Assembly: GCA_913058255.1 (NCBI GenBank)
Contig: CAJXQU010000003.1
Coordinates: 1-64,000, forward strand
Origin: an uncultured Pseudomonadota bacterium
Lineage (GTDB): Bacteria; Pseudomonadota; Gammaproteobacteria; CAJXQU01
Direction: 5' to 3'
Length of the DNA stretch: 64,000 nucleotides
Shown: one piece after another, positions 1,235-14,686 of the stretch
How positions within the stretch are numbered: position 1 is the first letter of the stretch
Layout: each line of letters starts with the position of its first letter
Translations under genes and position numbers: made by a program
Notes under the pieces: model-generated
Databases searched by the model: none
What the model was told of the DNA's origin: nothing
Seen by the model: the letters and a program-made list of their open reading frames with translations, nothing else

Positions 1235-2422
1235 TTACATGACTTCCACTTTTGCAAATTTTCTCTTGCCTACTTGAAAGACACTGACAGTACCTTTTTC
1301 GACATCTTTCTGCTCTGAGATTTTTTCTCCGTCAATCTTCACCGCACCTTGCTTTATCATTCGATTTGCATCTGATGTGCTCGATGTTAGTCCCGCTTCT
1401 TTTAAAAGATTTGCAAGGCGAATAACACCTTTTATAGACTGTACTTTAACTTCAGGTATTTCATCAGGCATCGCTCCTTTCTGAAAGCGCCCGATAAACT
1501 CTTCTCTTGCTTTTACTGCATCGCTTGCACTATGAAACCTTCCGACGATCTCCTCTGCTAAGATAAATTTAACATCCCGTGGGTTCACTCCTTCTTCTGT
1601 GGATGTCTTTAACTTTTCAATTTCCAGTAATGATTTGAAGCTTAGCAGCTCAAAGTAACGCCACATGAGTTCATCAGATATAGACATTATTTTGCCAAAC
1701 ATTTCATTTGCAGGATCCGTTATGCCTATATAATTATTTAATGACTTGGACATTTTTTGTACACCGTCTAAGCCTTCAAGGATTGGCATGGTCAAAACGA
1801 CCTGTGGTTTTTGTCCCCATGCTTCTTGTAATTGCCTTCCTACTAATAGGTTGAATTTTTGATCAGTACCACCAAGTTCCACGTCGGCTTCCATCACAAC
1901 CGAGTCATAACCTTGTATTAAAGGATATAAAAATTCATGTATCGCTATCGACTGCCCAGATTTATAGCGCTTATTAAAGTCATCTCGCTCTAACATTCTA
2001 GCAACCGTATGTTTTGCAGCTAATTGAATAAGATCAGCGGTGGACATCTTGTTCATCCACGTTGAATTAAACATGATTTTGGTTTTATCAGGATCTAAAA
2101 TTTTGAATGTTTGCTCTTGATAGGATTTAGCATTCTCTTCAACATCTTCTCTGGTCAATGCGGGACGTGTTGCACTTTTACCCGTTGGATCCCCGATCAT
2201 TCCTGTGAAGTCACCGATCAGGAACATAATCTCATGCCCTAAATCTTGAAACTGTCGTAGTTTGTTTAATAAGACGGTATGTCCCAAATGTAAATCTGGT
2301 GCAGTAGGATCAAAACCAGCTTTAATTTTCAACGGCCTTTTTTCTGCTAACTTTTTAATAATCTCTTCTTCTAATAAGACATCGACTGTCCCACGCTTAA
2401 TAATATCGAGAGCTTCCTTCAT
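1235..2422 (-). CDS. tyrS: Tyrosyl-tRNA synthetase
   Basis: Class I aminoacyl-tRNA synthetase that charges tRNA-Tyr with tyrosine in the cytoplasm. The 395 residues hold the HIGH-type motif HLGH at 45-48, the KMSKS motif near 226-230 (after GLDGVQ), and a C-terminal S4 RNA-binding domain from about residue 335. The length fits the shorter TyrZ-like bacterial form. The gene diverges from the murein peptidase gene and is followed on the same strand by the 16S gene. The order tyrS then rrn, next to an M23 peptidase and anmK, also occurs in Pseudomonas. Confidence 0.96.
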
Positions 2423-2462
2423 ACCTGTTTATCCTATAAAAGTACTGCAAAATAATCCGAGT

Positions 2463-2490
2463 AGCATACCGCTTCAAACATTGACGTCAA
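2463..2490 (-). promoter_or_regulatory. Probable tyrS sigma70 promoter
   Basis: Read on the minus strand, TTGACG (2485-2490) is separated by 16 bp from TATGCT (2463-2468). This would place transcription about 35 bp upstream of the tyrS start at 2422. The -35 lies inside a 10-bp perfect palindrome, TTGACGTCAA (2481-2490). Assignment is by consensus match only. Confidence 0.5.
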
Positions 2491-2553
2491 ACCCTTGAAA
2501 AGTTAAGGTTGTAGTATAACTATAATATATAAAACGGAAGGAAAACGTGAGTC

Positions 2554-4197
2554 ATGAAGCGAAATAGTATCTTATATGACTACAAGCCTCGTCTAGAATG
2601 GTCAGAATCTCATTCAAGCAAAAAATACGCTAAAAGCAAAAAAATATTAATACTTGCTGGTGCTTTAATTATCGGCGGCGGCCTCTATGTCGGTTTCCAA
2701 GAATTCATTTCAAAGGACAGCTCGTCCGAAACGCTCGCGACAAGTAATTCGAATAGCCAAACATCAAAGGTGACTCAAACACTCGAGCTAAGCCCTTTAA
2801 CATCAAAAAAAACAACAACCGATCGTCTAAGTAAAACGCCTCAACTCACAAGACTTCAAGCATCAATAGTCACAGACACAGACCGAACAGAATCAATACA
2901 AGTGGCTCCATCTATTAAACCTAAGTTAAAAACACCTGAACAAGTACCAGCTGAAACAACAAAGTTGGAAATGGATAAGGGATACAAGCCTTCAGCTGAA
3001 TTAACAAAAACTCTCTCCACCAAAGAGAAGTGGCGAACAGTAACTGTAAAAGATGGCGACAACCTTTCACTTATATTTAGTCGCTTAGCCATAAGTAAAA
3101 ATGATCTGTACCAAATTTTATCTTTGGGTGATGACACACAAAGCCTAAAACAACTAAAACCAGGTCAAGTTCTTCGTCTTAAGTTTGAAAACTCACATAT
3201 TGAAGAGTTAGTACATGAGTCCGATCTGACTCATACGCTAAAAGTGATTAAATCTGACGATGAGTTTAAAGCAAAAGTTATTGAGGAGTTGCCTGAAATC
3301 AAAGTTGCAACATCATCAGGCACGATCCAAGACTCTTTATTCCTTTCGGGCCAAAAAGCAGGCCTGTCAGATAATGTCATCATGCAAATGTTTGGTATAT
3401 TCGGCTGGGATATCGATTTTGTGTTAGATATTCGTAAAGATGATGCCTTTCATGTTGTCTATGAAGAACTCTACAAGAATGGTGAAAAGATTAAAGATGG
3501 TAAAATTTTAGCCGTTGAGTTCGTGAATCAAGGCAAAGCATTTAAGGCCGTGCGATATATCGACTCAGAAGAACAGCCAGGCTACTACACTGAGCAAGGC
3601 AAAAGTATGAAGAAGGCCTTTTTGAGAACACCTGTTAATTTCACTCGGATCAGCTCTCACTTCAATCTAAGCAGAAAACATCCGGTGCTTAATAAAATTC
3701 GCGCTCATAAAGGTGTGGATTATGCGGCTCCTTTAGGAACCCCGATAAAGTCGACAGGTAACGGTAAAGTTATTTTCGTTGGTGTACAAAATGGTTATGG
3801 AAATACCGTTATCATTAAACATGGTGGCAAGTATACGACTCTGTATGCCCACTTATCGAGATTTTCTAGAGGTCTGAAAAAAGGAAAACGAGTTGAACAA
3901 GGCCAAACTATTGCGTATGTAGGAAAGTCAGGTTTAGCTACCGGCCCTCACCTGCATTACGAGTTCCGTGTAAACGGCGCGCATAGAAATCCTTTAACAG
4001 TAGACTTGCCGAAGTCATTACCTTTACCTGAAAAATATATGCCCGATTTTCGTCAAAAAACAAAATCACTGTTAACCCAGTTAGCATCGTTGTCTGATAC
4101 AACACGTCATGCTCAAGCTAAGCCTGAAAAGGAAGCTGTGAAAAAAGTGATTGATGTAGCCTCAAGAGAGTACCCTCTAAACTCTACTATCAACTAG
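2554..4197 (+). CDS. M23 family murein endopeptidase with OapA/LysM-like domain (MepM type)
   Basis: Membrane-anchored periplasmic peptidase predicted to cut peptide cross-links in peptidoglycan. The 547 residues comprise a basic cytoplasmic tail, one membrane helix at about 30-48, a long polar Ser/Thr-rich linker, an OapA/LysM-like segment at about 160-210, and a C-terminal M23 domain. The M23 zinc ligands are visible as HKGVD near 384-388 and HLH near 466-468, with an LYAHL segment between them, so the enzyme looks active. GGAAGGA at 2536-2542 supports the ATG start. The anmK start codon follows the stop codon immediately, so cross-link cutting and anhydro-muropeptide recycling are probably co-expressed. 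Confidence 0.9.
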   Translation: MKRNSILYDYKPRLEWSESHSSKKYAKSKKILILAGALIIGGGLYVGFQEFISKDSSSETLATSNSNSQTSKVTQTLELSPLTSKKTTTDRLSKTPQLTRLQASIVTDTDRTESIQVAPSIKPKLKTPEQVPAETTKLEMDKGYKPSAELTKTLSTKEKWRTVTVKDGDNLSLIFSRLAISKNDLYQILSLGDDTQSLKQLKPGQVLRLKFENSHIEELVHESDLTHTLKVIKSDDEFKAKVIEELPEIKVATSSGTIQDSLFLSGQKAGLSDNVIMQMFGIFGWDIDFVLDIRKDDAFHVVYEELYKNGEKIKDGKILAVEFVNQGKAFKAVRYIDSEEQPGYYTEQGKSMKKAFLRTPVNFTRISSHFNLSRKHPVLNKIRAHKGVDYAAPLGTPIKSTGNGKVIFVGVQNGYGNTVIIKHGGKYTTLYAHLSRFSRGLKKGKRVEQGQTIAYVGKSGLATGPHLHYEFRVNGAHRNPLTVDLPKSLPLPEKYMPDFRQKTKSLLTQLASLSDTTRHAQAKPEKEAVKKVIDVASREYPLNSTIN

Positions 4198-5304
4198 ATG
4201 CAACTCTTTATTGGCTTAATGTCTGGTACTAGCGTTGATGCCATAGATGCTGCGCTAGTATCCTTCGATGAAAACCAAACGATTAAGCTTGAACACTTTA
4301 CCACTCAACCTTACCCCCTTGAGTTAAAAGATAAAATTGCTGAAATGCGCTCAGCTACAGCAAGATTTAGCTTTAAAGAAGTTGCAGAATTAGACATTAA
4401 GTTAGGCCATCTTTTTGCGAAAACAGTTGGCCAATTACTCTCATCAGCGAAAATGTCACATGAAAACATTATGGCTATAGGCAGTCATGGCCAAACTATT
4501 TTTCACTCTCCTGATTCTGTAGAAGCATTTACTCTTCAGATAGGTGACCCAAGCACTATTGCTGCGACAACATCAATCACCACTGTTGCAGATTTTCGTA
4601 GTATGGATATTGCTGTTGGTGGCCAAGGAGCACCACTGGCTCCTGGTTTTCATGCCGAACTTTTCAGACATCCAAAAGAAAATAGGGTGGTGCTAAACCT
4701 CGGAGGAATAGCAAATATAACCTTTATTCCTTCGTCGGCAACTCAACCTATTAGGGGATTTGATACTGGGCCTGCAAATTGTTTGATGGATGACTGGGTT
4801 CTAAAAATCTTAAATAAACCTTACGACGACAATGGCTCGTGGGGACAGCAAGGTACAGTGAGTTCTGAGCTTTTAGCCAAAATGCTGGCTGATGATTACT
4901 TTAAGAAATCTCATCCTAAAAGCACTGGCCGAGAATATTTTAACCTCCAATGGTTAAATCAGAAGTTAGGTACAAGTGAGCATATTCCAAAAGATATTCA
5001 AGCAACGCTTCAGCAATTAACGGTCAGCTCAATAGCAAACTCAATCATCACCTTAAAAGAGAATGTCGCCGAGCTCATTATCTGTGGTGGTGGTGCCCAC
5101 AACCAACAAATAATCAGATTACTTTCGGAAACTTTAACTGAGATAGACGTTAAAACAACGGATGCGTATGGAGTTGATCCTGACAGTATAGAAGCGATGG
5201 CTTTTGCATGGCTCGCGAAACGTCGATTGGATGGCCTACCGGGCAACCTGCCTTCGGTGACAGGTGCTAGTAAGGAAGTTCTACTTGGAGGGATCTACGG
5301 CTAA
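4198..5304 (+). CDS. anmK: Anhydro-N-acetylmuramic acid kinase
   Basis: Cell-wall recycling enzyme that hydrates and phosphorylates 1,6-anhydro-MurNAc to MurNAc-6-phosphate. At 368 residues it matches E. coli AnmK. Family features include the N-terminal GLMSGTSVDAIDA nucleotide-binding loop, GSHGQTIFH, NLGGIANIT, FDTGPANCLMD and the C-terminal VDPDSIEAMAFAW. The ATG directly abuts the TAG of the upstream peptidase gene, which indicates translational coupling. The 3' end faces erpA with only one base between the two stop codons. Confidence 0.96.
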   Translation: MQLFIGLMSGTSVDAIDAALVSFDENQTIKLEHFTTQPYPLELKDKIAEMRSATARFSFKEVAELDIKLGHLFAKTVGQLLSSAKMSHENIMAIGSHGQTIFHSPDSVEAFTLQIGDPSTIAATTSITTVADFRSMDIAVGGQGAPLAPGFHAELFRHPKENRVVLNLGGIANITFIPSSATQPIRGFDTGPANCLMDDWVLKILNKPYDDNGSWGQQGTVSSELLAKMLADDYFKKSHPKSTGREYFNLQWLNQKLGTSEHIPKDIQATLQQLTVSSIANSIITLKENVAELIICGGGAHNQQIIRLLSETLTEIDVKTTDAYGVDPDSIEAMAFAWLAKRRLDGLPGNLPSVTGASKEVLLGGIYG

Positions 5305-5305
5305 C

Positions 5306-5656
5306 TTACGTTGAAAAAGAAGACCCACAACCGCATGTTGTTGATGCATTCGGGTTACGAATAACAAACTGAGCACCTTCTAAACCTTCGGTATAATCTA
5401 TTTCAGCACCTTCTAAGTATTGAAGGCTCATTGGATCAACTAGAAGTTTTACCCCACCCTTTTCGACGATTTCATCACCCTCTGTAACACTCTCTTCAAA
5501 CGTAAAACCGTATTGAAAACCTGAGCAACCACCTCCGGAAATAAAGACTCGAAGCATTAAGCTGTCGTCCTCTTCTTCCTCAATCAATGTACGCACCTTA
5601 TCTGCAGCCGCATCTGTAAAAACTAATAGTTCTTCGCTTTCAATTTCCGTTGTCAT
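5306..5656 (-). CDS. erpA: Iron-sulfur cluster insertion protein ErpA
   Basis: A-type carrier that delivers Fe-S clusters to target proteins. The 116 residues show the HesB/IscA fold with the three cluster-binding cysteines at Cys44 ([11 protein letters not shown]), Cys108 and Cys110 ([10 protein letters not shown]). The N-terminal FTDAAADKV segment is characteristic of ErpA. It is the last gene of the argC-DUF6776-bactofilin-erpA run on the minus strand, 28 bp after the bactofilin gene. Pseudomonas keeps erpA beside anmK and tyrS too. Confidence 0.95.
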
Positions 5657-5684
5657 TCGCTCGTCTCCTTAACAAGGTACTTCT

Positions 5685-6092
5685 TTATGAATCCTGATCA
5701 TGCTCTAGGTTCAAATGTGTTTCATCAGCATTCGTTAACTGATGTATCAATTGACCATTAACTTCAGCACCCATCGCCATTTCTAACAGGTTATAATACA
5801 CATTACCTTCGACTCGCGCATTAGCAGCAAGTTCGATATGTTGATGTACATAAACATTGCCGAGAATCGTTCCATTTAAGATCAAGAATGGCACCTTGAC
5901 CTCACCTTCAATACTTCCTCGGTCACTAACGGTTAAAACAGACGTATCTACATCTTCGGACAGAACATTCCCAACTACACGGCCGTCGATATGACAGCCG
6001 CCAGTAAAGTTAAGCTCGCCCGTTACGACGGTATGTTGCCCTACAAGAGAGTCAACCTGAGTTACTTTTCTTTTTTTCTTTTTTCCTAACAC
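5685..6092 (-). CDS. Bactofilin family cytoskeletal protein
   Basis: Small polymer-forming protein of the bactofilin (DUF583) family. Family members form filaments that scaffold cell-wall enzymes or polar proteins. The 135 residues start with a lysine-rich tail, followed by a glycine- and valine-rich right-handed beta-helix core from about 15 to 110 (G-E-L-N, G-x-V, I-x-G repeats) and an acidic C-terminus. It lies 13 bp after the DUF6776 gene, and M23 peptidases are frequent bactofilin neighbours. The specific role here is not deducible. Confidence 0.85.
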   Translation of the reverse strand: MLGKKKKRKVTQVDSLVGQHTVVTGELNFTGGCHIDGRVVGNVLSEDVDTSVLTVSDRGSIEGEVKVPFLILNGTILGNVYVHQHIELAANARVEGNVYYNLLEMAMGAEVNGQLIHQLTNADETHLNLEHDQDS

Positions 6093-11714: not shown

Positions 11715-12995
11715 ATGACTCGCTCACAAGAACTTTTCCAACAAGCACAAAAACATATTCCGGGCGGCGTTAATTCACCAGTGCGAGCGTTTAATGGAGT
11801 CGGTGGTGCTCCGATCTTTTTCAAAAAAGCTAAAGGCGCTTATCTGATTGATGATGATAATAATCGCTATATCGACTATGTCGGCTCATGGGGACCGATG
11901 ATCGTTGGTCACGCGCATCCTATGGTGATCTCTGCTGTACAAGAAGCGGCCGCAAATGGGCTCAGCTTTGGAGCACCGACTGCAATCGAGATCGTGCTGG
12001 CTGAAATGGTGTGCCAAATCATACCTTCCATCGAAAAAGTGCGCATGGTCAGCTCCGGCACTGAAGCTACCATGAGCGCGATCAGGCTGGCCCGTGGTTA
12101 CACAGGACGCGATAAAATCATTAAATTTGAAGGTTGTTATCACGGCCATGCCGATTCGCTTTTAGTTAAAGCGGGATCAGGCGCTCTGACATTAGGCGTT
12201 CCTAGCTCTGGTGGCGTGCCCGATTCTCTGGCTCAACATACGATCACCCTGACTTATAACAACATTGCTGAAGTGGGCAAGGTTTTTTCAGAGATAGGTG
12301 ATGAGATTGCTGCTGTTATCGTTGAACCCGTCGCGGGTAATATGAATTGTATTCCACCAGTCACTGGTTTTCTTGAAGGATTGCGTTCGGTCACAGAAAA
12401 GCATGGAACGGTTCTGATTATGGATGAAGTCATGACGGGATTTCGTGTTGCACTCGGTGGCGCACAAGGTCATTACGGCATTACGCCTGATCTGACTACG
12501 CTAGGCAAAATTCTTGGCGGTGGTATGCCGGTTGGTGCATTCGGTGGTAAAAAAGAAATAATGGACCATATCGCCCCTGATGGACCTGTTTATCAAGCCG
12601 GAACATTGTCAGGAAACCCTGTTGCTATGGCTGCCGGACTTGCAACATTGGAACTGATCAATAAACCAGACTTTCATAAAGAACTCTCAGCAACCGCTAA
12701 AAGTTTGATGCAGGGTATTCAAGCTGCGGCAGATAAAGCAAACATTCCTTTAACCACTAATCAGGTCGGTGGTATGTTTGGGATTTTCTTTACTGAGGAA
12801 AAAAATATAACGTCATTTGATCAAGTGATGAAGTGTGATCAAGAACGTTTCAAAAAATTCTTCCACGGTATGTTGGAAGAAGGTATTTATCTTGCTCCTT
12901 CAGCGTTCGAAGCTGGCTTTGTTTCAAGTAAACATACCAGCAAAGAAATCGCTGAAACCATCGCAGCGGCCGAACGCGTATTTACTACCTTATAA
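11715..12995 (+). CDS. hemL: Glutamate-1-semialdehyde 2,1-aminomutase
   Basis: PLP enzyme that converts glutamate-1-semialdehyde to 5-aminolevulinate, the first committed tetrapyrrole precursor. The 426 residues hold the PLP lysine Lys265 in [17 protein letters not shown], plus [16 protein letters not shown] and [15 protein letters not shown] precedes the ATG at a normal distance. The gene ends the thiD-thiE-hemL series and is closed by a terminator hairpin shared with pqqA on the other strand. Confidence 0.97.
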
Positions 12996-13022: not shown

Positions 13023-13060
13023 AAAAAAACCCGGAGGAAATTACTTTCATCCGGGTTTTA
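13023..13060. terminator. Bidirectional terminator between hemL and pqqA
   Basis: The stem ACCCGGA/TCCGGGT continues as GAAA/TTTC after one mismatch and is flanked by an A-run on the left and a T-run on the right. It can stop transcription of hemL (plus) and of pqqA (minus). Confidence 0.85.
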
Positions 13061-13075
13061 AGTACGGTCTAAATC

Positions 13076-13150
13076 TTAACGATTCATGATGTACATTGTT
13101 ACTTCAAAACCGAATCGTAGATCTTCGTATGCTGGTGTTTCCCATTTCAT
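13076..13150 (-). CDS. pqqA: Coenzyme PQQ precursor peptide PqqA (orphan)
   Basis: A 24-codon gene on the minus strand. The peptide starts MKWETPAYEDLRFGF and ends FEVTMYIMNR, matching the PqqA family. PqqA is the ribosomally made precursor whose Glu and Tyr are cross-linked and excised to form pyrroloquinoline quinone. The Glu16-Val-Thr-Met-Tyr20 core is intact. A strong ribosome site (TAGGAG) lies 7 bases before the ATG and a terminator follows the stop codon, so this is a complete small gene. No pqqB, C, D or E lies in the window, so the maturation genes must be elsewhere or missing. A PQQ-linked metallo-hydrolase occurs at 29497-30489. Confidence 0.88.
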   Translation of the reverse strand: MKWETPAYEDLRFGFEVTMYIMNR

Positions 13151-13528
13151 AGTATTTCTCCTAATAAAGTTAATAAAGTCACTTGAGTTGTCTTTATAGC
13201 AAACTACTTTGCCTGCTTGTAGTTAGATATAGCATCTGGCATGCCAACTTATTAAAATTTTACTTGCCGAAAACACATAGTCTATATTTATCAATGATTT
13301 AAATGATGGAATATCATTCCAACTTCATTAATATCAGCTCTTAACAAAACAAACTTAAAGCTAAAGTGGTCTATAGCAACCACCGAACTGGTTCTCTATA
13401 ACCAGTTGGTTGATTTTCTTAACAGCATGTTTTCTGGGTGTTGGATCTAAGTTGTTGTAATATTGCTGCCAATCAATCAAAAATAATAATCCCGTTTCGG
13501 CTTGCTGCTAACAACGGCGGAGAATAAT
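13151..13528. other. Divergent intergenic region between pqqA and the glycerate kinase gene, with two inverted repeats
   Basis: This 378-bp stretch has no gene that I can support and must hold the promoters of two divergent genes. It contains the perfect inverted repeat TGGAAT-ATC-ATTCCA at 13307-13321, overlapped by AATGAT/ATCATT at 13302-13318. A second repeat, AACTGGTT-CTCTAT-AACCAGTT, lies at 13386-13407. Both are of operator size and could be regulator sites; no factor can be named. Confidence 0.5.
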
Positions 13529-14686
13529 ATGAAAATCGTAATTGCTTCCGACTCCTTTAAAGAAAACTTGACCTCCTTACAAGTTGCCACTCATATCGAG
13601 AAGGGAATTCACAAAGTTCTACCGAAAGCCAAATGTACAAAGGTGCCGATGGCTGATGGTGGCGAAGGCACTGTTCAAGCATTAGTCGATGCAACACAAG
13701 GCAACATTATTCGTAAGAAAGTCACTGGGCCGGATAACATTCAAGTCACAGCGCGTTATGGCATTTTGGGCGATGGTGTAACCGGTGTGATCGAAATGGC
13801 CGAAGCATCAGGCTTACACCTGACAAGCAGGGAAAGCCGTAACCCACTTAAAATGACCAGTTACGGCACAGGAGAGCTGATCGCCGATGCGATGAAAAAA
13901 GGTATTGAAACGATTATTATTGGTCTTGGAGGATCAGCAACCGTTGATGGAGGTGCTGGTATGGTTCAAGCTCTGGGCGTACGTTTTTTAGATAAATCGG
14001 GTGAAGAGATTACTGAAAATCTCGGTGGCGGCATGCTAAAAAATATCGCGACAATCGATATGTCTCAAGTCAATCCTTTAATAAAAAAAACCAAAGTAAT
14101 CATAGCTTGTGATGTTGTTAATCCTTTAGCTGGTAAAAAAGGCGCGGCTTATGTTTTTGGCCCACAAAAAGGTGCGACACCTGCTCAGGTAAAAACTCTG
14201 GATGACAACCTTAAATACTTTGGTCAATTACTCAAAACACAGTTGAAGAAAGACGTTGCTACAAAACCTGGCGCGGGCGCAGCGGGTGGCCTTGGTGCCG
14301 CATTAATGGCCTTCACTCGTGCGACGACAAAGCGTGGTGTTGATCTGGTTGTTAAAGTTGTCGAGTTGGAAAAACATCTGAAAGGAGCTGATCTGGTGAT
14401 CACCGGAGAAGGTCGTATCGACTTTCAAACAGCTTTCGGCAAAACGCCCGCAGGCGTCGCGAAAGCAGCGAAGAAATTTAAAGTACCAGTCATCGCAATC
14501 GGTGGTGCATTGGCTGATGATGCACCGGGTGTCTTTGAGCATGGGATTCACGGCTTGGATTCTGCCGTTTGCCAACCTATGTCGCTAGAAGATGCTTTAA
14601 AAAATTCTAAAAAATATTTAGAATTTGCTGGCGAACGCGTGATCCGTACTGTTCTGATCGGTCAAAAAATGGCACGTGAAAAATAA
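13529..14686 (+). CDS. Glycerate kinase (GlxK/GarK family)
   Basis: Phosphorylates D-glycerate, in this family usually to 2-phosphoglycerate, feeding glyoxylate-derived carbon into glycolysis. The 385-residue protein starts MKIVIASDSFKENLT and contains PMADGGEGTVQAL, EMAEASGL, GLGGSATVDGGAGMVQALG and PGAGAAGGLGAAL, all typical of the family. I chose the ATG at 13529 because GGAG lies 7 bases upstream; an in-frame start at 13502 would add 9 residues unlike the family. It diverges from pqqA and ends in a strong terminator. Confidence 0.92.
   Translation: MKIVIASDSFKENLTSLQVATHIEKGIHKVLPKAKCTKVPMADGGEGTVQALVDATQGNIIRKKVTGPDNIQVTARYGILGDGVTGVIEMAEASGLHLTSRESRNPLKMTSYGTGELIADAMKKGIETIIIGLGGSATVDGGAGMVQALGVRFLDKSGEEITENLGGGMLKNIATIDMSQVNPLIKKTKVIIACDVVNPLAGKKGAAYVFGPQKGATPAQVKTLDDNLKYFGQLLKTQLKKDVATKPGAGAAGGLGAALMAFTRATTKRGVDLVVKVVELEKHLKGADLVITGEGRIDFQTAFGKTPAGVAKAAKKFKVPVIAIGGALADDAPGVFEHGIHGLDSAVCQPMSLEDALKNSKKYLEFAGERVIRTVLIGQKMAREK

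Follow-up and report, generated by a model that had tools for sequence, protein, structure and literature searches.

The short pqqA gene that stands alone between hemL and a glycerate kinase gene in this DNA is very likely a functional, selectively maintained second copy of pqqA, switched by a sigma-54 two-component circuit and giving an excess of PqqA. We also consider it likely that the circuit is one instance of a two-component, sigma-54-dependent regulon devoted to PQQ supply, which would take in pqqA copies (solo copies included, many of them beside regulator genes), the pqq operon and a PqqU-like importer, with a GAFT[S/N/H]A activator, in at least 14 families of PQQ-making Gammaproteobacteria. 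The window, that is, the whole stretch of 64,000 nucleotides analyzed, is positions 1-64000 of contig C3 in a genome of 2.78 Mb (33 contigs, 96% complete; G000). The gene, the operon, the promoter and enhancer architecture with its conservation, and the co-occurrence and adjacency with the regulator were all computed directly.

The solo pqqA reads from 13150 to 13076 on the minus strand, and the plus-strand frame is closed. Its peptide scored 44 bits (E 2e-11) against the Pfam PqqA family PF08042, for which the curated cut-off is 21.1, and 44.5 bits (E 9e-12) against the NCBIfam equivalog TIGR02107, with a cut-off of 20. The ExxxY cross-link core is present as E16-V-T-M-Y20 in a peptide within the 20-30 residue range. 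A sequence-only reading of this DNA had proposed a complete 24-codon pqqA with an intact core, a ribosome site and a divergent glycerate kinase, and all of these were recovered (Table 1). The "dedicated" terminator of that reading held up as a terminator; the hairpin is flanked by A/T tracts on both sides, has equivalents at L014 and L015, and is probably a bidirectional terminator common to pqqA and hemL, hence not dedicated. No sigma-54 site of its own was found for the glycerate kinase, and an Rfam scan of the solo pqqA region gave no match above the gathering threshold.

Table 1. Features of the solo pqqA locus, in positions of the window
Feature	Position	Strand	Description
pqqA (solo second copy)	13076..13150	minus	24 codons plus stop, MKWETPAYEDLRFGFEVTMYIMNR; Pfam, TIGR02107, peptide identical to operon PqqA
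Shine-Dalgarno AGGAG	13158..13162	minus	7 nt before the pqqA ATG, from sequence
Terminator hairpin	13026..13059	.	Between convergent pqqA and hemL; -18.2 kcal/mol, z -5.2
hemL-like aminotransferase class III	11715..12995	plus	Convergent neighbor; same position in G001 and G002
Glycerate kinase	13532..14686	plus	PF02595, 485 bits; divergent neighbor across a 381-bp intergenic region
Sigma-54 -24/-12 element TGGCATGCCAGATGCT (GG-N10-GC)	13231..13246	minus	About 95 nt upstream of the ATG; conserved in orthologous solo and operon copies
Putative UAS2, enhancer-like inverted repeat TGGTTGCTATAGACCA	13367..13382	minus	Conserved
Putative UAS1, enhancer-like inverted repeat TGGTTATAGAGAACCA	13389..13404	minus	22 bp start-to-start from UAS2

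Elsewhere in the genome, contig C6 carries a full pqqABCDE operon, in which PqqB-E exceeded the cut-offs of the NCBIfam equivalogs TIGR02108, TIGR02111, TIGR03859 and TIGR02109. The PqqB-E enzymes expected to accompany a PqqA are thus encoded in the same genome, while the window itself holds none of their genes, as the earlier reading had stated, and the sole PqqE above its cut-off lies on that other contig. A terminator-like hairpin (-16.3 kcal/mol) was located directly behind the operon pqqA. Because the operon PqqA and the window peptide agree in 24/24 residues (the DNA differs at 4/72 sites), we regard the window gene, by its sequence, as a duplicate pqqA and not a precursor for another maturase. 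Of the possibilities raised previously, duplication was therefore borne out by the second copy in the C6 operon, and use of the peptide by another maturation enzyme was not. That the solo peptide serves a different radical-SAM maturase instead of PQQ synthesis is highly improbable. In its favor, no maturase is encoded nearby and the genome has four further radical-SAM matches; none of these, however, reached the PqqE cut-off, and the identity with the operon peptide speaks directly against a separate use.

Comparison within the order involved three genomes, G000 and two relatives (G001 and G002). Both relatives have an operon copy plus a pqqA copy in the same hemL/glycerate-kinase gap, the latter being tandemly duplicated in G002, and this recurrence of the same peptide in the same gap excludes a chance open reading frame. 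The gap copies of the relatives differ from the window copy by 4-8 synonymous differences and by zero amino acids. Across the three species, seven pqqA copies showed no amino-acid change although pairs of them differ at up to 10 nucleotides, a pattern that, as read from these alignments, places the duplicate under purifying selection. Moreover, codon 5 (Thr) separates the two types, with ACA in every solo copy and ACT in every operon copy of the three genomes, and so speaks against the solo genes having been copied anew from the operon in recent times. The position outside the operon might be taken to mark a non-functional relic drifting to loss, which is scarcely credible for a gene whose peptide stayed constant despite these nucleotide differences, whose ribosome site, terminator, sigma-54 site and enhancers are conserved, and which was duplicated again in tandem in G002.

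The control region of the solo gene has the makings of a sigma-54 promoter. Specifically, its -24/-12 element agrees with TGGCAY...TGCW at 7/8 flanking consensus positions, a score reached by 0.25% of shuffles of the region, and it is accompanied by two conserved, putative upstream enhancer sites (UAS). GG-N10-GC was found 82-95 nt before the ATG in 6/6 leading pqqA promoters (solo and operon, three genomes), and two TGGTT-N6/7-AACCA inverted repeats, with starts 22 bp apart and a distance of about 125-160 bp to the -24 box downstream, were likewise in 6/6; the DNA around these motifs has otherwise diverged. For each of the six promoters, both features together appeared in 0/2000 dinucleotide shuffles. 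Searched across the three genomes, the tandem UAS marked two pqqA loci per genome plus one further site, with 0 for a reversed-pattern control. Single UAS sites, counted genome-wide, were at chance level (20 matches versus 16 for the reversed pattern). Specificity resides only in the tandem pair, not in the single site. The "isolated copy with its own regulation" proposed earlier consequently survives in part: the gene has its own promoter, yet regulation is not separate, since promoter type and enhancer sites are those of the operon copy and presumably the regulator is as well.

We then placed this promoter type in a sample of 369 gammaproteobacterial genomes, 50 of which have pqqA, with two or more copies in 23 of the 50 and up to nine in one genome. 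The motif rules, set on the six order-level promoters, were applied to 68 pqqA copies, of which 46 had the sigma-54 element, 40 the UAS and 37 both; as many as 4000 control windows, placed at random in those loci but clear of pqqA, yielded 0 with both motifs. The combined architecture occurs at pqqA in about 14 gammaproteobacterial families, and the spacing of paired UAS is 22 bp in 17/22 cases, a tally in which a few copies were entered twice, with no effect on the genome-level counts given below. Two loci with a UAS pair and no sigma-54 site at the threshold (G120 L137 and G235 L141) count against the circuit. An ordinary duplicated pqqA on a housekeeping promoter, with the sigma-54 and repeat motifs coincidental, would fit the frequency of multicopy pqqA both in the genomes above and in methylotrophs (PMC4109929), as well as two sigma-70-like matches on the minus strand near the solo gene. 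Those matches are weak (9/12), and the motif statistics, the conservation and the co-occurrence with a regulator described below make coincidence very unlikely.

Two further observations came from the same sample. The 2.6-Mb genome G161 (L119-L124) has nine pqqA copies, eight of them outside the operon and none with this architecture, and a regulator 54% identical to the one considered here. Additionally, four genomes have a second PQQ-like locus in which a divergent PqqA, W[VI][DN]P[AE][YF]CDLRLGFEVTAYVYVR, is encoded near pqqE (L132, L140, L146 and L129 of G134, G341, G121 and G163, respectively), with pqqD detected in 3/4 and sigma-54 plus UAS in 2/4.

The candidate regulators in G000 are a histidine kinase and an NtrC-type regulator encoded at about 48.4-51.2 kb of contig C11, away from pqqA, so that their assignment rests on orthologs. 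Seven solo pqqA loci adjoin a kinase/NtrC-type pair of one orthologous group, at 55-63% identity to the C11 regulator. In five of the genomes (G120, G235, G071, G200 and G030) solo pqqA and the kinase gene diverge from one another across the UAS pair; G086 and G209 show this arrangement for a pqqA that is followed by pqqE; and G132 has solo pqqA, regulator, kinase and PqqU-like receptor in that order. A regulator near pqqA was also present in G175 and G172. Altogether, regulator genes adjoin pqqA in about a dozen genomes, mostly with UAS between, and a kinase ortholog lies beside the regulator in 27/30. At L167 5026-6342 (G000:C11), between a cytochrome b561 gene and the kinase, there is a sorbosone/glucose-dehydrogenase-like gene (PF07995, weak), in the position where a solo pqqA sits in several other families.

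With orthologs called at E 1e-115, the regulator was present in 30/50 genomes with pqqA and 0/20 without. UAS lay upstream of at least one pqqA in 27/30 of the regulator-bearing pqqA genomes versus 0/20 of those lacking the regulator (Fisher p 3.8e-11, for related genomes whose counts are not fully independent); by family, which controls for kinship only roughly, co-occurrence was about 14 versus 0 (p 8.6e-8). In 16 genomes the pqqA promoters were first scanned after the motif rules had been fixed. Both motifs were found in 6/6 of those whose ortholog was at least 54% identical, and UAS were absent in G172 and G122 (48-49% identity) and in 8/8 without the regulator. Counting against the circuit are the three genomes with a regulator-like protein and no UAS by our criterion (G161, G172 and G122).

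These data also bear on whether the sigma-54 promoter is real and a different enhancer-binding protein (EBP) of G000 reads TGGTT-N6-AACCA, the linked kinase/regulator pair being a mere frequent neighbor. About ten strong EBP matches in the genome, together with the distance of the C11 pair from pqqA there, lend this some weight. We nevertheless judge it unlikely, because no EBP other than the C11 protein has its orthologs encoded beside pqqA in several families, the next-best G000 EBP being at 40% identity or less to the group, and because the UAS tracks this protein across the 50 genomes, with none in its absence and with UAS in all six of the later-scanned genomes that have an ortholog at 54% identity or more. 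An AcoR-like EBP encoded near a PQQ alcohol dehydrogenase on contig C8 was considered as the regulator and rejected, since the pqqA-linked regulators are not its orthologs.

The C11 regulator combines a receiver (PF00072), a Sigma54_activat domain (PF00158) and a Fis-type HTH (PF02954), as in the NtrC family. In the kinase, a region of about 130 residues is enclosed by what appear to be two membrane helices and followed by HAMP, HisKA and HATPase_c. A PDB profile search of the periplasmic domain of the kinase returned no significant relative. This layout resembles NtrB/NtrC-family systems (NtrC, AtoC/AtoS, ZraR/ZraS, PrsR/PrsK) in the kinase with HisKA/HATPase_c and HAMP, in the receiver, AAA+ sigma-54 activation domain and Fis-type HTH of the regulator, and in inverted-repeat enhancers 100-160 bp upstream of -24/-12. 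It differs in that the apparent targets are PQQ genes, in the sigma-54 contact loop, and in scores far below the equivalog cut-offs: among the matches listed, neither kinase nor regulator reached any of them, those of NtrC, AtoC, ZraR and PrsR included, the best for the regulator being AtoC (348 versus 714). The loop is GAFTNA in place of the canonical GAFTGA, and GA[FY]T[SNHT]A in 28/30 regulator orthologs (L188-L217), the second Gly being replaced by S, N, H or T; GAFTGA was found in four other G000 EBPs, those in which the search pattern matched an NtrC-like loop. Since Asn and Ser at this position in NorR (G266N/S) keep activity and relieve repression (PMC2941729), NorR mutants at this residue becoming constitutive, and since GAFTHA and GAFTDA occur naturally in Desulfovibrio (PMC4641369), the altered loop appears compatible with function. 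Speculatively, it may alter the need for phosphorylation.

The further tandem UAS site in the order-level search precedes a TonB receptor gene by about 190 bp, again with a sigma-54 site. The closest solved relatives of this receptor are the PQQ transporter PqqU/YncD (E 2e-62). PqqU homologs with the sigma-54/UAS architecture are found in G001 and G132 (PDB 9c4o and 6v81, E down to 9e-109), and in the G002 ortholog a perfect repeat and a weaker one accompany a sigma-54-like site; no PqqU ortholog was found in G000. The G132 gene (L154) has an 8/8 sigma-54 site and two UAS. We call its product PqqU-like, as NF041535 (PqqU), although its best family at 453 bits, falls below the equivalog cut-off of 1200, while the match to PDB PqqU has E 9e-109. 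A general lack of synteny between PqqU and pqq operons has been reported, from which independent regulation was suggested (PMC12124388). Here, in contrast, PqqU-like genes carry the cis-code of pqqA, which suggests, on motif evidence, co-regulation and would revise that view for some taxa.

PQQ-dependent dehydrogenases, which the earlier reading had proposed to look for, were present: two xoxF-type genes, split at the ends of contigs C5, C10, C17 and C21, and, on C8, a complete PQQ alcohol dehydrogenase. With pqqE on C6 they run counter to the condition that would have refuted that reading, a genome lacking both pqqE and such dehydrogenases. As members of the regulon they were rejected on the UAS and sigma-54 criterion. 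The xoxF promoters on C17 and C21 had neither element, nor did the kinase promoter in G000, and the C8 gene has a 7/8 sigma-54 site at -125 and no TGGTT UAS. The C8 cluster (L058 3686-5437 and 11847-13784; G000:C8 about 57.7-67.8 kb) also encodes an aldehyde dehydrogenase and the AcoR-like sigma-54 activator, and is probably a second, separate sigma-54 alcohol regulon. A Cas9-like protein, Cas1- and Cas2-like open reading frames and a short repeat array adjoin the broken xoxF end on C10 (L061 about 1573-5970).

In the circuit that we favor, a signal, possibly alcohol, lanthanide or PQQ status, would pass through the C11-type kinase to the NtrC-type regulator, most likely the C11 pair in G000. 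We infer DNA binding by the regulator, activation and transcription of pqqA: the regulator would bind the paired TGGTT-N6-AACCA sites, which lie about 137-159 bp ahead of the -24 box of the solo gene, contact sigma-54 RNA polymerase by DNA looping, and remodel the closed complex to give a short pqqA transcript. Solo PqqA would be used in trans by PqqD/PqqE and the remaining PqqB-E enzymes from contig C6. At the operon, the same promoter type with a hairpin behind pqqA would favor pqqA over pqqB-E and so yield more PqqA than enzymes, which fits a precursor consumed one per PQQ made. The suggestion that the isolated copy could control PQQ supply is plausible, with its own promoter and a full pqqABCDE in the genome; PQQ output could instead be limited by the other enzymes.

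Solo and multicopy pqqA are already known, and the new part is the control region. Reported cases are 3-12 copies in Methylophilaceae (PMC4109929), five in Hyphomicrobium denitrificans, three of them solo (PMC9851590), multicopy or solo pqqA in Methylovorus (Ge 2015, cited in PMC9851590) and a separate pqqA in Methylosinus trichosporium OB3b (PMC3615186). The OB3b expression values given there, 11857 for pqqA and 166 for pqqE, about 70-fold, fit the proposed PqqA excess. As here, these extra genes for PqqA lie apart from pqqBCDE and presumably add to the supply of the precursor, whereas no sigma-54 promoter, tandem enhancers or dedicated two-component regulator is described in the accessible text of those papers. 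A literature search on pqqA with enhancer-binding protein, sigma-54 or response regulator, with most subscription journals outside its reach, found no description of the circuit. Among Pseudomonas regulators, AgmR, PedR2 and ErdR are LuxR-type proteins, not known as sigma-54 activators of pqqA, and CbrB is sigma-54-dependent but global. The ped/exa systems (AgmR, PedS2/PedR2, ErdR, CbrAB; PMC12997753, PMC6115532) are alike in placing PQQ-dependent alcohol oxidation under two-component control.

How PQQ supply is matched to methanol and alcohol oxidation has had no general answer so far. The proposed circuit makes this question, and that of why many methylotrophs keep several pqqA copies, directly testable, including in cultured relatives, and the defined cis-code (paired TGGTT-N6-AACCA plus sigma-54) with its candidate kinase/regulator pair would offer a handle on PQQ production and on the coordination of synthesis and import.
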